From Lujinxingiaceae bacterium (GTDB lineage: Bacteria; Myxococcota_A; Bradymonadia; Bradymonadales; Bradymonadaceae), in NCBI GenBank assembly GCA_013697635.1, contig JACCWM010000078.1:1-62114 (forward strand): 62,114 nucleotides of DNA, written 5' to 3'. The notes under the pieces are model-generated. The model saw nothing but the letters and a program-made list of their open reading frames with translations. It had not been told where the DNA came from and did not search any database. The position numbers and the translations under genes are program-made. Of this stretch, positions 22,837 through 33,352 are shown piece by piece. Position 1 is the stretch's first letter. Every line of letters begins with the position of its first letter.

Positions 22837-24225
22837 ATGCGTAAGAAAGTTCATATGATTTCGCTGGGTTGCCCGAAAAATCGCGTTGACTCCGAGGTGA
22901 TGGTCGGCCTGATTCAACAAGACGACGAATTCGACATGGTCGGCGACATCGAGCAGGCCGACTTTGTCGTGGTCAACACCTGCGGCTTCATCGACGCGGC
23001 CAAAGAGGAGTCGGTCAACACGATCCTCGAGATGGTCGAGCTCAAGAATCAGGGCCGCCTGCAAAAGGTGATCGTCACCGGCTGTCTGTCCCAGCGCTAC
23101 TCCGGAGATCTCGAGCTCGAGATCCCCGAGGTCGACGCGATCCTCGGCACCCAGACCTTCACCTCGATCAACCGCGCCCTGCACGGCACGCTCGAGCACA
23201 AGACTTACATCCAGCCGGGCAGCTTCATCATGGACAACGAGGTCGCCCGCACCAACACGGTGCGCGGCGGCACGGCTTATCTGAAGATCGCCGAGGGTTG
23301 CTCGCGCACCTGCAGCTTTTGCATCATCCCCAAGATCCGCGGCAACCAGCAAAGCCGCACGATCGAGGACGTCGTGCTCGAGGCCAGAAAGCTCGGCCGC
23401 GCTGGCGTCAAAGAGGTGATCTTGGTCGCCCAGGACATGACCAGCTACGGCGTCGACCTCGACCCCAAGGCCAACCGCGACTATCTCGCGCGCCTGCTCC
23501 ACCGCCTCAGCGACGAGGCCGAAGAGATCGACTGGGTGCGCCTGCTCTACATGTACCCCTGGAATTTCACCGACGAGCTCGTCGAGATCTTTCGCGCCGA
23601 CAACCGCATCCTTCCCTACGTCGACATGCCCTTGCAGCACATCAGCAAGCGCGTCTTGAAGTCGATGCGCCGCAACATCCAGCGCGATGCCCAGATGAAC
23701 CTCATCGAGCGCCTGCGCTCGATCGACGACCTGGTGCTTCGCACGACCTTTATCGCCGGCTACCCCGGCGAGACCGACGCCGAGTTCCAGGAGCTCTACG
23801 ACTGGGTCAAGGAGGTCGAGTTCGACCGCGTCGGCGTCTTCACCTTCAGCCCCGAAGAGGGCACGCTGGCGGCAACCCTCGACGATCCCGTCGAGGAGCA
23901 CGTCAAGCACGAGCGCCGCGACGCCCTGATGAGTCTGCAACAAGAGATCAGCCTTCGCAAAAACGAGTTGTGGATCGGCACCCGCACCGAGGTGCTCGTC
24001 GACGGCGTCTCCGAGGAGCACGAGTTCGTCCTCGAAGGCCGCCACTACGGCCAGGCCCCCGACATCGACGGCGTTGTCTACCTCTCCTTTGACTACGGCG
24101 GCGAGATGCCCACCCCGGGCGACTTCGTCGAGGTCGAGATCCAGCAGGCCACCGAATACGACCTGATGGGTGTCGTAATCCCCAAAGACCCGCTCAACCT
24201 GGGCAGCGGCGATCTGCGCATCTAA
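22837..24225 (+). CDS. rimO: Ribosomal protein uS12 methylthiotransferase RimO
   Basis: The 462-aa radical-SAM enzyme adds a beta-methylthio group to the conserved aspartate of ribosomal protein S12. MISLGCPKNRVDSE, NTCGFI and TGCLSQRY give Cys12, Cys49 and Cys83 of the UPF0004 iron-sulfur cluster. CSRTCSFC (Cys155, 159, 162) is the radical-SAM cluster site, and a C-terminal TRAM domain starts near 385. The SLGCPKN/RVDSE start separates RimO from MiaB. The gene is intact. Its last 29 codons plus stop occur again 2.2 kb downstream with only silent differences, suggesting its 3' end has been a recombination or integration target. Confidence 0.95.
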   Translation: MRKKVHMISLGCPKNRVDSEVMVGLIQQDDEFDMVGDIEQADFVVVNTCGFIDAAKEESVNTILEMVELKNQGRLQKVIVTGCLSQRYSGDLELEIPEVDAILGTQTFTSINRALHGTLEHKTYIQPGSFIMDNEVARTNTVRGGTAYLKIAEGCSRTCSFCIIPKIRGNQQSRTIEDVVLEARKLGRAGVKEVILVAQDMTSYGVDLDPKANRDYLARLLHRLSDEAEEIDWVRLLYMYPWNFTDELVEIFRADNRILPYVDMPLQHISKRVLKSMRRNIQRDAQMNLIERLRSIDDLVLRTTFIAGYPGETDAEFQELYDWVKEVEFDRVGVFTFSPEEGTLAATLDDPVEEHVKHERRDALMSLQQEISLRKNELWIGTRTEVLVDGVSEEHEFVLEGRHYGQAPDIDGVVYLSFDYGGEMPTPGDFVEVEIQQATEYDLMGVVIPKDPLNLGSGDLRI

Positions 24226-24427
24226 AAGGCCTTTGACCCCAAAGCCATACTTTGTACCTGGCGCGACTCAGCGCTCGGGGTCGCCAACTGTACACAATAC
24301 GTGGCATCGACAGCTAGATGCGCTCGACAGAAGTCATAACACGCTTCGCCCTTCGCCTTTCGCGTTCAGGTCGCCGGGGGAGTGGGTTAGTGGGGAATGT
24401 GAGTAGGCAGAGACGTTGCCGAGAGCT

Positions 24428-24772
24428 TCATTGTGGCACCTCTGGAGCAGTATCTCTGGCATCAAGCGGCCCCATATGGATGAAAATCTCTTCGACGCTG
24501 CGCCTGTCTTTATCGGCCGTTGCAGACTCGTGGCTATAAAAGAATCGTGCGTCCCTTCCACGTTCAAATGCCTTTAATTCAGCAAACAGAATCTTGAGGC
24601 CGGTCAAAAAAGCTTGCCATACAGTGGCGCCATAGATCGGCATTTTGCGTGGCTTATCGGCCGTGCCATAGACGACACGGCAAACAAAGATCGTTTTGTA
24701 AGTCTCGACCGTGAGCGAAACGTCGAACTGAGTCACATCGTTGTCTATCCGGACAAAGAACGATTCAGCCAA
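24428..24772 (-). CDS. Small protein, possible immunity-type (DUF6968-like) family
   Basis: About 114 aa from a TTG start without a clear ribosome site; the true start is uncertain. The core, IYGATVWQAFLTGLKILFAEL, resembles the G-x-D-x-x-QAL-hydrophobic helix of small immunity-like proteins found beside polymorphic toxins (DUF6968-like). That likeness is from memory and is weak. It ends HMGPLDARDTAPEVPQ. It lies 100 bases downstream of a DUF4288 gene, on the same strand, in the mosaic segment after rimO. Just upstream is a 24-bp sequence copied exactly from inside the neighbouring lipoprotein gene, so the 5' end may be a recombination product. Confidence 0.5.
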   Translation of the reverse strand: MAESFFVRIDNDVTQFDVSLTVETYKTIFVCRVVYGTADKPRKMPIYGATVWQAFLTGLKILFAELKAFERGRDARFFYSHESATADKDRRSVEEIFIHMGPLDARDTAPEVPQ

Positions 24773-24783
24773 GACACAAGCAG

Positions 24784-24807
24784 GAGCTGCCGCTGCCTTC
24801 GGCGACG
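24784..24807. repeat. 24-bp exact direct repeat, second copy at 25688-25711
   Basis: The two copies are identical and in the same orientation. One lies within the lipoprotein coding sequence (encoding VAEGSGSS on the minus strand), the other directly upstream of the small immunity-like gene. It marks a past duplication or deletion joint between the cassettes. Confidence 0.85.
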
Positions 24808-24872
24808 ACGCTTTTTCGAAGGCTTTTTATGAATATATGCAGCGCTTCGACAGGCAGTTTATGAAGTGTGTT

Positions 24873-25214
24873 TCAGGGGTCGTTTGAGACCGTAAAGGCT
24901 TCGCCAAGATCGTCGACAAAACGTGCATAAAGCTCGGTCACATCATCAAGCGAATCGTAAAGCACCGGACGTACGTCGAGTATTTGCTTCAAGGTCCAGG
25001 TGATACGGTCGCCGAACTTGTTTTCAAAGCCATGCGGCTGACCGGCGTAGTCCAGGACCTTTTGACGGGCATGATCCTGCGAATCGGCCTTAATGAGCAG
25101 AAAGCTCTGTTCGAAGAGCGGAGCGCGTTCGTTGTCCGTTGAAGACGACTCTGAGACTAAGATCACAAAGTAGTACTTTTCCAAGAGATTGTTGGTTGTC
25201 GGTTCGGTGGTCAT
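24873..25214 (-). CDS. DUF4288-like small protein, possible orphan immunity protein
   Basis: The 113-aa soluble protein has the layout of DUF4288 proteins: KYYFVILVSES as the first strand, FEQSFLLIKADSQDHARQKV as a beta-strand plus helix, then WTLKQILDVRPVLYD. DUF4288 members are often immunity or accessory genes in contact-dependent and polymorphic toxin loci. It begins 7 bases after the lipoprotein stop codon, implying co-transcription. No toxin-like gene with a recognisable nuclease or secretion domain is present here, so any immunity role would be as an orphan. Base composition is less GC-biased than the surrounding genes, consistent with transfer. Confidence 0.6.
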   Translation of the reverse strand: MTTEPTTNNLLEKYYFVILVSESSSTDNERAPLFEQSFLLIKADSQDHARQKVLDYAGQPHGFENKFGDRITWTLKQILDVRPVLYDSLDDVTELYARFVDDLGEAFTVSNDP

Positions 25215-25221
25215 ACGCTCT

Positions 25222-26139
25222 TCATTTGGCGAAACGGTTATCGTTCAAGAGTTTCCATGCTTTTTTGCTGTCCGCATCTTTTCCTTTCTTGATGTCACCA
25301 AGCCGCGACGTAAGCAGCTGTGATGGAAATTCTTGGCGGATTTTTGCTTGGCGGCACCTGCTAATAAATGTATCCGCGATTTCATCGAGATTTTCATTGG
25401 CCAAACAACTTTGTGCCGTGCACAGACCGTAATCATCCGCACAAGCTGTCCAACAACCACGATACTCAAGAGCATCGCTGCTTGCGGAACTACAGTGATT
25501 ACTACAACTATCATACACAGACTCACAGTCTTGCCAAATCGCCGCGCAGCCATGGCTGCTCCACTCAAAGACGCCGCTGACATAATCGAGCACGAGCGGC
25601 GACGAGCCCATGACGAAGACTTCGCCTGCAAACGAACCCATGACGTATGTGCTCGTATGCTCATTCAGGGTGAAGTTGAGCGTCGACGAGCTGCCGCTGC
25701 CTTCGGCGACGTAGGACTGGCCGTTGCCGTCTTGAATCGAGAAATAGCCCCTGTAGGTGCCCGTCACGCCGACAGGCACCTCGGTTCTAAAGGAGCTCAA
25801 AACGCCAGAGGGCTCCGTGGGCGTTGCATTCCTGAACTCGATGCCGAAGACATCAAGCCCCTCGGCCTGCCCCGATGTGACGTCGCCATAATAGATGCTG
25901 CCCTTGGTGCGCTTGATCTGGTCGCCCCTGATGTGCTTGCCCTCGACATAGAGTGACCAGCTGGCGCACTCAGTGCCCGCAGCCGCCGGGTCGGCGTTGC
26001 GATCGTCAGGATCACCGCACGAGGCCAGGGCGGCGGTTGCCGCGATCAGAGGCTGGGTCGGTGACAAAGGTGGTCGCTGTTTGGGAGAAGCAGACGAAGC
26101 CGTCGAGAACGAGGGAGTTGATATACATCGTGACCTCAT
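25222..26139 (-). CDS. Cys-rich lipoprotein-like protein with uncertain 5' end
   Basis: A probable secreted lipoprotein: PLIAATAALASCGDPDD has a hydrophobic stretch ending in lipobox LASC. The N-terminus is unconvincing. The ATG at 26139 gives a 40-residue leader with little hydrophobicity, and the nearer TTG at 26067 gives no basic residues. Neither has a ribosome site, so the 5' end may have been lost by rearrangement. The middle (about 150 residues) is beta-rich, and CAAIWQDCESVYDSCSNHCS begins a Cys-rich segment, spacing similar to the lipoprotein at 26774. A basic tail (DIKKGKDADSKKAWKLLNDN) follows. Unknown family. Confidence 0.6.
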   Translation of the reverse strand: MRSRCISTPSFSTASSASPKQRPPLSPTQPLIAATAALASCGDPDDRNADPAAAGTECASWSLYVEGKHIRGDQIKRTKGSIYYGDVTSGQAEGLDVFGIEFRNATPTEPSGVLSSFRTEVPVGVTGTYRGYFSIQDGNGQSYVAEGSGSSSTLNFTLNEHTSTYVMGSFAGEVFVMGSSPLVLDYVSGVFEWSSHGCAAIWQDCESVYDSCSNHCSSASSDALEYRGCWTACADDYGLCTAQSCLANENLDEIADTFISRCRQAKIRQEFPSQLLTSRLGDIKKGKDADSKKAWKLLNDNRFAK

Positions 26140-26322
26140 AACGAGCGGTGACGAAGGGTTTCGAATGGGCGGGCGCGAGCGTCGAAGCGGTTGGCCGGGT
26201 ATTCGAATGGTTGTTTTTGTGCACATGTAGCGTGTGGGCGACGAGTCAAATGAGCGTGTTTGCGCTGTATGAGCGCCACGGCGGCAACTCGAGTCATCGC
26301 GTTCGCGCTGTCGAGCGCGGCG

Positions 26323-26412
26323 GAGATCCAGCAGGCCACAGAATACGACCTGATGGGCGTCGTGATCCCCAAAGACCCCCTCAACCTGGGCAGCGGCGAC
26401 CTGCGCATCTGA
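26323..26412 (+). pseudogene. Detached second copy of the rimO 3' end (29 codons plus stop)
   Basis: Bases 26323-26412 encode the same last 29 residues of RimO (beginning EIQQATEYDLMGVVI) as bases 24136-24225. They differ at five synonymous codon positions and in the stop codon (TGA versus TAA). Similarity continues for about 80-90 bases beyond the stop. Upstream of 26323 homology ends abruptly. The first 17 bases of both copies are identical (GAGATCCAGCAGGCCAC). There is no start codon, so it is a non-translated remnant. Confidence 0.93.
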
Positions 26413-26443
26413 GAGATTTGTCACGCCAAAGCGATACCTTGTA

Positions 26444-26664
26444 CGTGGCGCACCTCAGAGTTCGGGGTCGCAAAGCCGTCCACAATACGTGGCGACGACA
26501 TGCACCTGCACCTCGCAATGCTGTATGGAGGTCGTGGCATCGACATGCGTCTGCCCTCACAATCCGTACACAATACGTGGCGACGACATGCACCTGCACC
26601 TCGCAAAGCCGTATCGAGGTCGTGGCAACGACAGGTACCTACCCCTCGCCATGCCGTATCCCAA
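26444..26664. repeat. Degenerate 43-45 bp tandem repeats, five copies
   Basis: Units begin with CGTGGC at 26444, 26488, 26533, 26576 and 26621 (spacing 44, 45, 43, 45). Alternate units are closest to each other (for example 26488 and 26576 share CGTGGCGACGACATGCACCT), so the array probably grew as pairs. One or two related units also follow the intact rimO (CCTGGC at 24257 and CGTGGC at 24300). No unique spacers, so it is a minisatellite rather than CRISPR. The remaining non-coding bases of 26140-26773 show nothing else apart from the rimO fragment and the terminator. Confidence 0.8.
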
Positions 26665-26690
26665 TCCCAACTTCGACAGGTGCCAGCAAC

Positions 26691-26718
26691 AAAAAGAGCG
26701 TCCAAAGGACGCTCTTTT
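26691..26718. terminator. Rho-independent terminator, bidirectional
   Basis: AAAAAGAGCGTCC-AAA-GGACGCTCTTTT gives an 11-bp stem with A-run and T-run flanks, 55 bases beyond the stop codon of the Cys-rich lipoprotein gene. Confidence 0.88.
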
Positions 26719-26773
26719 GAGTGGGTCGAATTGCTCGCAAGACGTGCCCAGGATTGTTTAGGCCCTCGCTCGC

Positions 26774-27526
26774 TTAGTCGTCTGCCAGGCACGCATTGAG
26801 CGCCGGAGCGCACTGGGTCTCGAGGCACTGGTACTGTGTATCGGGGCCCTCCTCGATGCAGTGCTCGATGCGGCAGTCGACGACCGGATCCCACAGCTCG
26901 AGGTCTTCAGCGAGGTATTCGCAGTCGACGTGGCAGCCCTCGAACTCGCCGGCGCAATCGTCGACACACTCGACGTCGTCTGCTTCGCAGTCGATCAAGC
27001 AAAGCGCCTGCTCGTCGAGACAATCCGAGTAGCAGCCGGCAAAGCCGCGGCACGAGAGCGTAAGCTCGACGTCGTCGTCGGCGCACGCATCGAGCCAGAG
27101 GTCGTCGAGTTGGGCGCACTCCGATTCGACACAGCCCTCGAAATCGTGCACGAGCTCACAGTCGCTCCAGCATTGCAACAGGGCGTCGCCTTGCTCGGCC
27201 GCACTCGGGCCCGCCTCAGTTGCGCATTCGGCGTCACAGGCGCTGTCCAGACAGGGGTCCAGGCAGTCGACATAGACGCAAAAGACGGCCAACCACTCGG
27301 GATAGTCGTTGTTCTCCTCGTTGTTGAAGAGATTGTTGTCGTTGTTCTCCTCGTTGTTGAAGAGATTGTTGTCGTTGTTGCTGTTGTTGTCGTTGTTTTG
27401 CTCGACGTTGTTCGTCGCATTGTTTGCCTGAATCGAACTCTCGGGAGTGCAGGCCGACGCGCAAAAGGTCATGATCGCCAACGCCATCAAAATGCGGCGG
27501 CGCATAACATTTGTGGACAGTTTCAT
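26774..27526 (-). CDS. Cys-rich lipoprotein with Asn-rich linker
   Basis: The 250-aa product starts MKLSTNVMRRRILMALAIM with GGAG eight bases upstream; lipobox CASAC follows (Cys near 26). A linker of about 45 residues is nearly all Asn, Asp and Glu with a repeated block DNNLFNNEENN encoded by a perfect 33-bp duplication. The mature domain is acidic and holds over 25 cysteines in spaced C-x3-C pairs, likely disulfide-bonded in the envelope. Such Asn-rich linkers are frequent in Bradymonadales-type lipoproteins, from general knowledge. Function unknown; the pattern resembles the lipoprotein at 25222. Confidence 0.78.
   Translation of the reverse strand: MKLSTNVMRRRILMALAIMTFCASACTPESSIQANNATNNVEQNNDNNSNNDNNLFNNEENNDNNLFNNEENNDYPEWLAVFCVYVDCLDPCLDSACDAECATEAGPSAAEQGDALLQCWSDCELVHDFEGCVESECAQLDDLWLDACADDDVELTLSCRGFAGCYSDCLDEQALCLIDCEADDVECVDDCAGEFEGCHVDCEYLAEDLELWDPVVDCRIEHCIEEGPDTQYQCLETQCAPALNACLADD
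27308..27373. repeat. 33-bp perfect tandem duplication in lipoprotein linker
   Basis: Two identical 33-base units (27308-27340 and 27341-27373), in frame, encode DNNLFNNEENN twice on the minus strand. Copy number may vary between strains by slippage without breaking the reading frame. Confidence 0.9.
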
Positions 27527-27618
27527 CTTCAAATCTCCAAAAGTCTTCATCATGGATTCGGTTGGACACCGTCTTACGATGGTTGTCCTGTCGCAAGGTG
27601 GTGTCAAGCAAGGTGCGC

Positions 27619-30600
27619 TCAGCTGCGCGGATTCTCGTTTTCGAATGCATAGCGCTGCTCGACGGTGGCGAGGATGCGCCGGATCGTGGCGGCTCGGTCT
27701 TCATGCCACATCGCCGGTGTGACGCGCACTGTCGTCCAGCCCATTCGCGTCCAAAAAAGCGGCCCGTGCACATCGCGAGCAAGCGGCGATGCGGTGGCCA
27801 GAAACTGAGTGCAATCGATGCCGACGCGCGCCGGCGTATGAGCGTCGGGCGCCACGGCGATGTCGAGGCTCTGGCTGCCCAGACCCACATCGAAGCTCAC
27901 ATGCAAGCCACGCGCCTCGAGCGCCTGGCCGAGCTCGTCTCGCACACGTTGGCCGCAGCGCGCCGCTAGAATACGCCGGCCGCCCTGACCCGTTACGCCC
28001 TGGCCGCGGCCGAGCTCGTCGGCCTGCTCGAGCAGGCGCTCGACGCCCGCTACATCGCCGCGCGAGAAGGCCTGCACGAAGCCAATATAGGCCTTGAGCA
28101 ATTGCGGACCGACGTGGCGCGTGTGGGCGACCTTGAGCGCGTCGGGATCGATCGAGGTCACAAGCCAGGTGCCAAGGCGCGCGCGCGTGATCGCCACGTT
28201 GAGCCGCTTCTCGCCGCCTTGTTGGCCGATCGGGCCAAAGCGCGCGTGGATCGGGCCGCCCGGCTCGCTCGGCGCATAACCTGTCGAGAGCACGATCACG
28301 TCGCGCTCGTCGCCCTGGACGTTCTCGAGATTTCGAACAAAGAGCTGCTCGACGACGACGCGCTCGCCATCGCGCTCGAGCGCCCGGCGAAACTGCGGGT
28401 CGATCGCGCGGCGCGCGTCGAGCATCAGCTCGATGAGCTCGGTCTGCTTGCGGTTGAAGGTGACCACGCCCACCGTCGGCGCGCTGCCCTCGGCCAGCAC
28501 GATGTCGAGCAACTCGGCGACGAGCTCAACCACGCGGCGAGCCTCGGCCACGTTGGTCTGCTCCTCCCAGAGGCCGTCGACGCGAGCCAGATGCAGGCCT
28601 TCGACCATGGGGTGGCGCACTTGATCCTGGGCGCTGGGCGCAGTGATCAACCGGCCGCCGTAAAAGGCACGATTGGAAAAAGCGATCAACTCCTCGTGGC
28701 GCGAGCGATAATGCCAGCGAAGCGTCGTGTTCGCGTAGGCCACGCGTGCCAGCGCCAGAATCGAGCGTGTGGCGAGCAGCGTGTTCTCCTCGTCCTCGTC
28801 GTGCTCGATGCCGGCGCGAAAGAAGTGGCTCGGCGGCATCTGCTGGTCGTCGCCGGCCACGATCGCACGCTTGGCACGCACCAGCGCCGGCAGCGCCGAC
28901 TCCACCGGGCACTGGCTGGCCTCGTCGAAGATCACCAGGTCGAACAGACCTGGTGTCAACGGAAACAGCGCCGAGACCGCCTCCGGCGAGCACAGCCAGA
29001 CCGGGCGCGCGACGCCCAAGCCAGTATCCCAGTAGCGCTCGATGAGCTGGCGAAGGCTCGCGCGATTTCGCTGCTTTCGTGCCTCGCCCGCAAGCCGCTG
29101 CAGCGCGATGCGCCGGTTTGGGTCACGCTGCGCGCTGGAGAGGGCGTGGTGGTAGAGCGCAAACACACCGTTTCCGGCCACATCGCGACAGCGCGCCACA
29201 TCCTCGGCCATGTGCGCCAGATAATCGGCATCGACCAGCGGCGCCTCGATCTCGGCTGGCTCACGCTCGCCAACGAGCAGCGCGTGCCAGGCCCGCTCGA
29301 GGGCGGCCATCGCGTCGACCGCCGCGCTGCTTGCCTTTGCGCCAGCCTTGGCATCGGGGCGCCAAAGCCGCAAAAAGCGCTTGACCCAGGCCGACTCGCC
29401 AGCAACCAGGCGATCGATGCGAACGGCCTGTTCGGCGCGCTCACGCGTCGACAAAAAGGCCTCGAGCGCCTCATCGACCGCCGTAAAGTCGCCGCCGGCC
29501 AGCGCCGCTTGAAGCTCGACGGCGAAGCGCTCGTCGAGGCCGCCCGAGCCAACGAGCTCGTCTAGTTTCGTCTCAAAACTGCTCATGCCACGCGCGACGG
29601 CGCGATCGCCGATCGCCATGGTGAAGGTGGCCACCTCGCGCACCGGGTTCTCCAGATGCGGGCCGAGATCGGGCAAGCGATCGTAGGGCGCGCCGCGGCC
29701 AGCGAGCGCGCCCTGCAACTCATGCAAGCAGCGCGTAAAGGTGTGCTGGCGGCGCAAGGTCTCGATCGCGGTGTCGATGTCCTCGAGCGTGCCGTCAAAA
29801 CCAAAGTCGAAGAGCGCGTTGTCCGAAGGCAGGTCGCTGATGAAGCGCTGCCATTTTTTTGCTCGCGCGCACAGATCGCGCACGTTCACCGGCATGGCGT
29901 CGTCGCCAACGAGCGCGTTGCAAAGCCCCAATATCTCGGCCGGCAGCTTGCGAAGCCGCCAGTATTTGGGCAACAGAACGCGGTACCAGCGCGCCTCCAG
30001 AGCGGCCAATTGGTCGAGCTCGTCGATCCAGCGCGCGAGCTTGGCCATGGGCACAACGATCAGCTCATAGGGCACGGGCGTCAGCGTCGTGCGCGCCTGC
30101 TCGAGCAGCGTCATCACCCGGTGCCACTCGCCGTGCTCGGTCTCGCCGCCCATCCATCCCCAGAAGAGCAAGAACTCCGAGACCAGCGCCTGTTCGAACT
30201 CGAGCATATCGAGCAGCGGGCTTGCCGCCTGCCACACCCCGTCGTGGCCGGCCGTCTCGCCAGGTGTCATCGAGGCCTTGGACGCGCCCATCTGGCGCAC
30301 CACGGCTTGCAGCGAGGCGACACGCTCGTAGAGCGCATCGATCGCGGCCGGCTCAAATTCCGCCCAGTCACCGCGCCGCGCGAGCAGATCGGGCGAGGCG
30401 ATGGCCGTGGTGTGGGCGCCAAGCGCGTCGATGCGCGCCAGGTCTGCCACGGCGGCGTTCTCGGTGACGCTGTGCGCGACATCGCGCAGATCAGGCAGCG
30501 CGCGCCCATCGTCGTCAAGCGCGCGCTCTTGCAGCTCAGCGAGCGATGGGCGGCCGTTGTGGCGGCGCGCGAGCAGGTTGAAGGCTTGCTGCGAGGTGCC

Positions 30601-31938
30601 AAGTCGCGCCAGCAGACGGCTCAGCGCCTGTTCGTGAATCCGGCGCGCGCGCACGATCTCGTCGTCTTGCTCGCTGGCGCCATCGCTGGCCTCCTCGAGC
30701 TGATCCAGGGTGCGCGAGAGCGCGTTGCACACGGCGTTGCGATCACGGCTGACATCGTGCACCAGGGCCAGCGGCTCGCTCAGACCCACGGCCGCGAGGC
30801 GGTCGGCGACCACATCGAGCGCGGCGCGCTTGGAGCAGACCACCAGCACCCGGTCGCCGCGCGCGATGCTCGCGGCCACCAGATTACCGATCAACTGCGA
30901 TTTCCCCGTGCCCGGCGGCCCTTGAACGACAAGCCCGCCGGCCTTTTCGCGCTCCAGAAAGCGAAACACGGCGTCCTGGCTGGCATCGGAGGCAAAGACC
31001 TGCCAGCGAGCCAGCGCGCCGAGCACGGCTTCGGCGTCGAAGGCCTGCTCGACGGGCTCCTCGATGCCGGCCTCCTCGCTCCAATCGCTGTCTTCGTCAA
31101 CGAGCAAGAGCTCGCTTGCCAGCCCCATCGACGCGTCGTCGAGCGACGCGCTCAGCAGCGCATCGTAGTCGACGACGACGTTGCTGCCTGCCACCGGAAA
31201 GCGGCCCAGCACGGCGTGGTGGCTAAACCAGAGCTTGGCGCTCGCCACCCCATCGCGCTGCTCGCGCGAGAGGGCTTCGACCGCAGTGAGCGGCCCCAGC
31301 GAGGGCGTCGCCTCGATCGCCAGACCGGTGCGCTCGAAGTAAGTAACCAGCGTCTGCCAGCTCGAGGCGTCGATCTTGGGCGACTCCTCGCCGAAGATGT
31401 CTTCGAGCGTGGGCCGTACGCCTTCGAGACGGGCTAGCAGCTGCATCAGCGGCTCGTTGAGCTCGGCCGCGCCCTCGGGCGCCAGGCGCCACTGCAGCCG
31501 GCCGGTCTGCGTCGCATCGAGCGCGACCGGAAAGAGCAGAATCGGCGCGCGCAGCCACGTACCATCGCGCGTCTTACCCTCCAAAAACGGCCAGCCCACC
31601 GCCAGATCTTCGGTGCCCGACTCCATGCGCTGCTCGCGCACGGCGTGCGCCAACGAGCCCACCTCGCGCGCAAAGCGCTCCATGTCCTCGCTCGCCCGAA
31701 CGTCGCAAAGCGCCACGGCGCCAGCACCTTCTTGGCCAAGCGCCGCAAGCAGCGCCCGAAAGGTATGCGGTTCACGCTCATGCAAAGCGAAGAGATCGAG
31801 CGCGCCGCTTTGAACCGGCCGCGTCAGCCGCAGCGAGCGCGTGCCAAGCGTCACGGCCACAAATCGATCGCGAAGCTGCTCGAGTCGGCGGCGCCTATGC
31901 GCCAGGGTATCTTGTTTGGAAGGAGACGAAATATGCAT
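27619..31938 (-). CDS. Large SF1 helicase with DUF4011-like N-terminus and C-terminal nuclease-like domain
   Basis: The 1439-aa protein has an N-terminal DUF4011-like part (RRRLEQLRDRFVAVTLGTRS) and Walker A VQGPPGTGKSQLIGN (340-347 core). Walker B LVIFDEASQCPVESALPAL lies near 1000 and motif VI RLNVAITRARLGTWLVTS near 1250. The last about 100 residues (FDVGLGSQSLDIAV...VGIDCTQF) look like a PD-(D/E)xK or Vsr/MTES_1575-type nuclease fold. The long insert between Walker A and B is mostly helical. Proteins of this build are often found in anti-phage defence loci and act as one-gene systems, so a defence role is plausible, not shown. Start chosen at MHISSPSKQ behind AAGAGG. Confidence 0.82.
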   Translation of the reverse strand: MHISSPSKQDTLAHRRRRLEQLRDRFVAVTLGTRSLRLTRPVQSGALDLFALHEREPHTFRALLAALGQEGAGAVALCDVRASEDMERFAREVGSLAHAVREQRMESGTEDLAVGWPFLEGKTRDGTWLRAPILLFPVALDATQTGRLQWRLAPEGAAELNEPLMQLLARLEGVRPTLEDIFGEESPKIDASSWQTLVTYFERTGLAIEATPSLGPLTAVEALSREQRDGVASAKLWFSHHAVLGRFPVAGSNVVVDYDALLSASLDDASMGLASELLLVDEDSDWSEEAGIEEPVEQAFDAEAVLGALARWQVFASDASQDAVFRFLEREKAGGLVVQGPPGTGKSQLIGNLVAASIARGDRVLVVCSKRAALDVVADRLAAVGLSEPLALVHDVSRDRNAVCNALSRTLDQLEEASDGASEQDDEIVRARRIHEQALSRLLARLGTSQQAFNLLARRHNGRPSLAELQERALDDDGRALPDLRDVAHSVTENAAVADLARIDALGAHTTAIASPDLLARRGDWAEFEPAAIDALYERVASLQAVVRQMGASKASMTPGETAGHDGVWQAASPLLDMLEFEQALVSEFLLFWGWMGGETEHGEWHRVMTLLEQARTTLTPVPYELIVVPMAKLARWIDELDQLAALEARWYRVLLPKYWRLRKLPAEILGLCNALVGDDAMPVNVRDLCARAKKWQRFISDLPSDNALFDFGFDGTLEDIDTAIETLRRQHTFTRCLHELQGALAGRGAPYDRLPDLGPHLENPVREVATFTMAIGDRAVARGMSSFETKLDELVGSGGLDERFAVELQAALAGGDFTAVDEALEAFLSTRERAEQAVRIDRLVAGESAWVKRFLRLWRPDAKAGAKASSAAVDAMAALERAWHALLVGEREPAEIEAPLVDADYLAHMAEDVARCRDVAGNGVFALYHHALSSAQRDPNRRIALQRLAGEARKQRNRASLRQLIERYWDTGLGVARPVWLCSPEAVSALFPLTPGLFDLVIFDEASQCPVESALPALVRAKRAIVAGDDQQMPPSHFFRAGIEHDEDEENTLLATRSILALARVAYANTTLRWHYRSRHEELIAFSNRAFYGGRLITAPSAQDQVRHPMVEGLHLARVDGLWEEQTNVAEARRVVELVAELLDIVLAEGSAPTVGVVTFNRKQTELIELMLDARRAIDPQFRRALERDGERVVVEQLFVRNLENVQGDERDVIVLSTGYAPSEPGGPIHARFGPIGQQGGEKRLNVAITRARLGTWLVTSIDPDALKVAHTRHVGPQLLKAYIGFVQAFSRGDVAGVERLLEQADELGRGQGVTGQGGRRILAARCGQRVRDELGQALEARGLHVSFDVGLGSQSLDIAVAPDAHTPARVGIDCTQFLATASPLARDVHGPLFWTRMGWTTVRVTPAMWHEDRAATIRRILATVEQRYAFENENPRS

Positions 31939-32032
31939 ACGCCCGCATCCTCTTACAGATGCCACCAGCGCGCAACGCCATTGAAGCCGCAGGTGCTTTC
32001 GTGGCATAAAAGCCCTCTGGAGAAGGCTCAAT

Positions 32033-33352
32033 ATGGACTCGAAATTCAAGCAACGCCTCAAGCGACTTCACGACTCGCGCCTGCGCGCCGCCGCGGCCAA
32101 TGAGCGGGCCGAAGATCAAGGCGTTTTCACCGCGGAAACCGAAAAGGTCGGGTCCCCTGAGGGGCCGGCCTCGGCGTCGTTAAAGGCGAAGGCCGACCAG
32201 GGCTGGCAAACGCTGGGTGCCGAGGTGGTGCAAAATGAACGCGGTCAGTTCTTGCTTCTTGCGCGCCACTATGGCGATGCCAGCCGCCACGGCCATCACC
32301 ACCTCGGGGCCTGTCGCGGGGCCGATCACAGCCAGCTTCGACGGCTGATGAACCGGCGAGCCTTTGAGTGTCTCGTGGCCGAAGACATGGTCTTTCTCGA
32401 CATCGAGACCAACGGTCTGGGTCGCGATGCGGGCACGTATGCGTTTTGTATCGGGGTGGGGCTTTGGGTCGAGGGCGGCCTGCTCGTCGAGCAGTATGTG
32501 ATGGGCAGCCTCGACGAGGAAGTCCCGATGCTCGCTGCGCTGGGCGACAGGCTGGACAAAGCGCGCGGGCTTTGCACCTTCAACGGCAAGAAATTCGACG
32601 TCGACCGCCTCGAGGCGCGCTACAAGCACCACGCCATGGCGTCGCCCTTTGGGCACCTGCACCACGTTGACCTGTTGCCGCTCTCGCGCAAACACTTGAA
32701 GGGTCACGTGCGCTACGGGCTGCAGGCGCTCGAGGAGCGCATCCTCGGCGTTCGACGCATCGACGATGTGCCCGGTCAAAGAATCCCGCCGCTTTGGAAG
32801 CGCTATCTGGCCGGCGGACAGGCCAGGCTGCTCGACGGTGTGCTCGAGCACAATCGGATCGACATCGTCTCGATGCCCGTCTTGCTGGCCGTATTGCTCG
32901 AGACGACGCCAGATTTGAGCATGCCGGATTCGAGCGCGCCGGCCGCAACAGGCGCGCCCGAGCCACGCACGCAAATGCCCGCTTTGAAAGCGCCCACAAG
33001 AGAATCGAGCGAGCCCTTGAACATCGGCGCGCGTTTGACGCGCTCATATACGCTTCGCGAGCGCTCCACAGGGCTGCCAAAGTCCAAGGCCGAGTTGCGC
33101 ACGTCTGCTGGCCCAAGGCTCGATGATTTCAAGACGATCGGTGAGAGGTTGCGCGCGCTTCGCGAGACGGCCGACGCGCTGATTGAGCGCGACCAGAGCG
33201 CGCAGGCGCTCGCGCTGCTCTTCGAGATGGTCGCCCTCTCGCCGGGCAATCCCTACCCGCTCGAGCAGCTCGCCAGATACTACCGCGCCCAGGGCAATCG
33301 CGCCTTCGCCGAGTATTTCGAGGCGCGCCTCAAGGCTTGCGCGCCTTACTGA
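32033..33352 (+). CDS. YprB-like RNase H-fold exonuclease with C-terminal helical region
   Basis: The 439-aa protein carries a DEDD-type 3'-5' exonuclease core: VFLDIETNGLGRDAGTYAFC (D-x-E), LCTFNGKKFDVDRLEARY, VDLLPLSRK and LEHNRIDIVSMPVLL. This is the order seen in YprB_RNaseH-like domains. Residues from about 350 form TPR-like helices (AQALALLFEMVALSPGNPYP; LARYYRAQGN). Divergent from the helicase/nuclease gene, 94 bases apart, with GGAGAAGG upstream of the ATG. Possibly acts in nucleic-acid processing or repair; partnership with the helicase is suggested only by proximity. Confidence 0.82.
   Translation: MDSKFKQRLKRLHDSRLRAAAANERAEDQGVFTAETEKVGSPEGPASASLKAKADQGWQTLGAEVVQNERGQFLLLARHYGDASRHGHHHLGACRGADHSQLRRLMNRRAFECLVAEDMVFLDIETNGLGRDAGTYAFCIGVGLWVEGGLLVEQYVMGSLDEEVPMLAALGDRLDKARGLCTFNGKKFDVDRLEARYKHHAMASPFGHLHHVDLLPLSRKHLKGHVRYGLQALEERILGVRRIDDVPGQRIPPLWKRYLAGGQARLLDGVLEHNRIDIVSMPVLLAVLLETTPDLSMPDSSAPAATGAPEPRTQMPALKAPTRESSEPLNIGARLTRSYTLRERSTGLPKSKAELRTSAGPRLDDFKTIGERLRALRETADALIERDQSAQALALLFEMVALSPGNPYPLEQLARYYRAQGNRAFAEYFEARLKACAPY

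Follow-up and report, generated by a model that had tools for sequence, protein, structure and literature searches.

The 3' end of rimO is present twice in the DNA stretch studied here, and the question raised by this locus is how a second copy came to lie 2.19 kb downstream of the gene's present end. The stretch (62,114 nucleotides, referred to as the window) corresponds to contig C142 in a Lujinxingiaceae genome of 6.2 Mb in 213 contigs (99.45% complete, contamination 0.66%). Full-length RimO relatives within the family display 69-80% identity, the closest cultured and named one being that of Lujinxingia vulgaris (80%). The genes adjoining rimO in the window were not found beside rimO in the family relatives, indicating that the neighbourhood is not conserved. 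The features of the locus are listed in Table 1.

Table 1. Features of the rimO locus in the window, with coordinates, strand and basis of assignment.
Feature	Coordinates	Strand	Basis
rimO (ribosomal protein S12 methylthiotransferase), intact	22837..24225	+	Pfam UPF0004, Radical_SAM, TRAM_2
Proximal rimO 3' end, probably incoming (replacement) copy	24136..24225	+	5 silent differences; codon likelihood
3' flank of proximal tail	24226..24312	+	Homologous to 26413-26500; first 1-2 units of 45-bp array
Weakly DUF6968-like 114-aa protein, candidate orphan immunity gene	24428..24772	-	Pfam E 0.064, below curated cut-off; cassette position
Lipoprotein-gene relic	24784..24883	-	Start region fused to 24-bp internal piece of the same gene; preceded by cassette spacer
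DUF4288 protein, candidate immunity gene	24873..25214	-	PF14119, E 6e-19
Lipoprotein gene, polymorphic-toxin-like C-terminal domain	25222..26050	-	Paralogues on C93, C208
Leader and degenerate unit of dispersed 43-bp array, cut off at distal rimO tail	26142..26322	+	
Distal rimO 3' end, probably displaced native copy	26323..26412	+	Codon usage typical of rimO body
3' flank of distal tail	26413..26500	+	82% to 24226-24312
45-bp degenerate tandem array, ~4 units	26468..26660	+	TRF

The repeat (24136-24312 and 26323-26500) is 178 bp in length, with 85% identity (E 9e-52). As stated in a preliminary description of the locus, both copies code for the same last 29 residues of RimO and a stop; six of the 90 bases differ, five of them synonymously (ACC/ACA, GGT/GGC, GTA/GTG, CCG/CCC and GAT/GAC) and the sixth in the stop codon (TAA/TGA). 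The homology claimed for 80-90 bases past the stop was also seen: over an 87-bp 3' flank the copies are 82% identical, having diverged at about the pace of the tails themselves, and the alignment score exceeded those of all 500 shuffles. This common flank displayed no significant terminator fold. The abrupt left edge reported for the distal copy was reproduced, as no significant similarity was detected to the left of 24136 and 26323 (P 0.37 for 60 bp, borderline at P 0.05 for 150 bp), and none was detected beyond 24312 and 26500 (P 0.84). Hidden homology to the left of the distal copy was considered and rejected: it was not significant, and this stretch matches the leader of a dispersed array instead. 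The first 17 bases are identical, as had been noted, but the identity is no evidence of an att core, because it has a P of 0.27 given six differences in 90 bases, and the copy contains other identical runs, of 17 and 20 bases.

When positions 22837-24152 were joined to the distal tail, an identical RimO protein was obtained. An intact gene is followed, on the far side of the insert, by part of a 3' end that was probably displaced, as expected of an element that enters a gene at its 3' end, and this part of the preliminary view is supported. A third rimO tail is absent from the genome. Duplication of gene ends as a habit of this genome was also considered and rejected; the other matches in the approximately 490 kb sampled came from genes with paralogues or internal repeats, from a tRNA-like pair and from short repeats between genes.

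The divergence between the two tails is purely silent (dS 0.29, dN 0). Whole rimO genes from three genomes of the Lujinxingia vulgaris genus differ by a dS of 0.24-0.33, so that both tails appear to have evolved on working rimO genes, at approximately the distance between sister species; this supports the earlier proposal that the incoming copy came from a related functional rimO. The last residues of RimO are highly variable across the family, and the tail found here (ending PLNLGSGDLRI) was present in none of the 18 other family and order genomes aligned; the donor must therefore be close, and so both copies would stem from the lineage of the window or from a sister species.

One alternative explanation for this pattern is that a single lineage duplicated the tail in tandem and the locus was remodelled afterwards, the proximal tail being the source and the distal one its decaying copy. 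Such an event would account for a tail peptide of the same lineage and for the same type of 3' array after both copies, but five silent and no replacement changes in a neutral, free-running fragment have a probability of only ~0.003 (flat prior on the rate; 0.0003 with a plug-in rate), and the insert itself has no second copy. We consider this explanation, which the preliminary description had named as a potential refutation, improbable. An assembly chimera, in which the contigs of two strains were fused at 26322/26323 with the right half starting inside the rimO of the other strain, would explain why the left edge is abrupt and why the silent divergence is as large as that between species, and the assembly is indeed fragmented. 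However, the window contains no N, no identical run longer than 20 bp was available for a misjoin, the genome holds no other, divergent version of positions 26650-32100, and contamination is 0.66%; of all the explanations considered we regard this one as the least probable.

The direction of the replacement was addressed through codon usage. The codon likelihood of the proximal tail was below that of 97.5% of the 29-codon windows in the rimO body, whereas that of the distal tail was at the 28th percentile (log-likelihoods of -23.4 and -18.2, respectively); the proximal codons GTA and GGT are rare in the remainder of rimO. This comparison was made post hoc on five sites, one of which (ACC/ACA) favours the opposite direction, and it weakly suggests that rimO now carries the incoming tail, the stranded original being the distal one.

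The preliminary description had placed a lipoprotein gene and two small immunity-like genes between the tails; all three were recovered, and to these were added the lipoprotein-gene relic and the piece of dispersed array that it had missed. Paralogues of the lipoprotein are encoded in the same genome on C93 (93.6% DNA identity over 514 bp) and C208 (52%), and the family was found in none of the 378 other genomes of the phylum (379 searched including this one). The C93 paralogue bears a different C-terminus from the window copy. In the latter, homology to the paralogues ends at 26050, within the signal peptide, so that the gene lacks its original start region and the frame continues into unrelated sequence. 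Over its final 50 residues, the lipoprotein is similar to an Rhs-type ORF tip of the Caballeronia plasmid pSBC1_2 (47-56% identity, E 2e-4 to 2e-7, the strongest figure being obtained with the C208 paralogue); the Rhs nature of this ORF was judged from its sequence, as the record is unannotated there. A constant N-terminal part with an exchangeable C-terminal domain was therefore found among the three paralogues, and the C-terminal domain is common to another toxin delivery class (Rhs). The DUF4288 gene adjoins the lipoprotein gene at two loci, the window and C208, paralogue following paralogue, and the relic matches C93 at 2376-2409, 2775-2798 and 1106-1141. No solved structures were found for the lipoprotein or the DUF4288 protein. 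Judged by sequence, the anatomy of the insert is that of a putative polymorphic toxin with an exchangeable tip and collected immunity genes, and we infer a toxin-immunity function from it.

At the C93 locus, a DUF3841 gene and a HEAT-like gene are located upstream of the lipoprotein paralogue and next to it. These two genes are bracketed by a 70-bp direct repeat of 91% identity (L060, 404-473 and 2258-2325), as if immunity genes had been gained via duplication of the flank.

Two types of repeat array are present around the insert. Positions 26142-26322 are similar to G000:C34:31511-31645 (85%) and G000:C205:20663-20743 (80%) elsewhere in the genome, and a 21-bp exact match at 26298 supports their identity as an array leader. 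Such intergenic arrays, with degenerate repeats of ~43 bp and a conserved leader of ~135 bp, are dispersed over the window, C34 (L111, 1501-2100) and C205 (L112, 1501-1900, after a trxB-like gene). The units of the 45-bp type contain GTCGTGGCAACGAC-like hairpins; this type occurs after both rimO tails, at 24226-24312 and 26413-26660, and nowhere else in the genome. With the lipoprotein family, the cassette spacers and the array leader all recurring in the same genome, the insert looks like a patchwork of chromosomal pieces.

Another possible explanation for the locus is a site-specific element that entered the rimO 3' end and brought a replacement end; the insert would be what remains of it, and its integrase would have been lost since or supplied in trans. 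The geometry is exactly that of attL, element and attR, with a copy that begins abruptly at the distal edge, and an integrase would yield the replacement and the displacement of the tail in a single step. Moreover, rimO has been reported as an island site in Acidithiobacillus, the case being A. ferrooxidans ATCC 53993 (PMC10322971), and in Polaromonas CJ2, as cited in a passage of PMC4482086. Against this, no integrase gene or recognisable remnant was found among the ORFs of the insert, in accordance with the preliminary description; the whole genome yielded only two Xer-type recombinase matches and one 75-residue fragment, all on other contigs, and no serine resolvase. The homology also continues through the 87 bp beyond the stop, and the identity of the first 17 bases is not significant. 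A duplicated rimO tail was seen in none of 20 relatives (0.9-18.6 kb examined downstream in each genome). The cargo had no match to phage families. We rate an integrase-borne element, as originally proposed, as somewhat less probable than the recombination favoured below, which it follows closely, and as deserving more weight than the duplication or the chimera. Neither the rimO tail nor the cassette was found in viral contigs. The 75-residue fragment (G000:C189:19945-20169) is the genome's only tyrosine recombinase match that is not Xer-like. A test for integrases at the rimO ends of relatives had been proposed; the sole match close by lies 1.3 kb downstream of rimO in relative G007, where just two matches are strong and Xer-like, and this one is presumably a housekeeping XerC/D.

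Since the insert has no integrase, the 3' flanks of the two tails are homologous at neutral divergence and the content of the insert resembles a chromosomal patchwork, we slightly favour recombination of DNA from a sister lineage into the rimO 3' end, with no dedicated integrase, over such an element; we put this forward tentatively, giving it somewhat less than an even chance. The incoming segment, from a sister lineage at species-level divergence, would have carried a rimO 3' end, its 3' flank and a toxin/immunity-type cassette. A crossover would then have joined the 5' part of the resident rimO to the incoming tail, and because the tail swapped in was synonymous, the RimO sequence would have remained unchanged, while the resident tail and its repeat array were stranded at their present distance downstream. 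The route may have been ordinary chromosomal recombination, through homology in the rimO tail and either a second, illegitimate joint or a Campbell-type circle, and the arrival may be likened to that of new Rhs/CDI tips displacing old ones. Donor, route and cargo function are all inferred here. Two points count against recombination: the tails share no identical run longer than 20 bp, which is short for RecA, and a tail can be duplicated in this way only if the donor is circular or another joint forms, steps that an integrase would make unnecessary.

In integrations of the icd/e14 type, the element supplies a replacement gene end and the original is displaced to the far side, with an integrase and short, defined att repeats. 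In the dusA-associated islands (PMC4482086), an end supplied by the element likewise replaces that of a housekeeping gene and displaces the original to the far side; these islands, however, have integrases and a 21-bp att repeat at the 5' end, whereas the window has no integrase and 178 bp of homology. Closest in target is iMGE1 of A. ferrooxidans ATCC 53993, a genomic island or partial ICE (PMC10322971), which shares with the window the rimO target, a rimO direct repeat at its ends and the lack of a listed integrase gene, but is ~165 kb in length with conjugation genes and belongs to another phylum, compared with 2.2 kb for the window insert. Orphan Rhs-CT/immunity pairs resemble displaced fragments (PMC3967940), gene-end fragments being stranded downstream, as here, after the arrival of a toxin/immunity cassette; there the displaced fragment is the toxin gene's own, while in the window it belongs to an unrelated housekeeping gene. 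The gene layout of SitA of Myxococcus, of the same phylum (PMC5562445), is also similar, with a lipoprotein, an exchangeable C-terminal domain and adjoining small immunity-type genes, but the window lipoprotein lacks its original start region. Replacement of a gene end with displacement of the original is thus a known type of event at a known target, of which the window holds a new and small case that lacks an integrase, carries cargo of toxin-immunity type and comes from a class that has received little study.

In this Bradymonadia genome, the replacement of a housekeeping gene end is linked to the arrival of a cassette of toxin-immunity type, and with it rimO seems to serve as a landing site in three lineages; the general picture of gene-end use is left unchanged. 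As the copies differ only silently, both served in living genes before they met, and together they form a clean molecular fossil. A broader scenario, to which we assign little probability, is that toxin-immunity cassettes of this lineage spread without an integrase, with housekeeping gene ends and their 3' repeat arrays serving as homology arms. If so, each arrival would swap in a synonymous gene end and strand the old one, and displaced ends would therefore record successive arrivals.

Members of the Bradymonadia have been described as predatory (PMC7460792). Downstream of the distal tail, positions 27619-32061 (- strand) encode a 1480-aa helicase/nuclease of anti-phage-like type (PADLOC PDC-S37, E 9e-145, and Hhe; NCBIfam ProA, E 1e-152, below the ProA cut-off), a candidate defence gene, by its sequence, adjoining the cassette. 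Between the two, at 26774-27607 (- strand), lies a gene for a Cys-rich putative lipoprotein, which had no family match and no copy adjoining rimO in the relatives; it has an Asn-rich spacer and a 33-bp perfect tandem repeat at 27305-27379.
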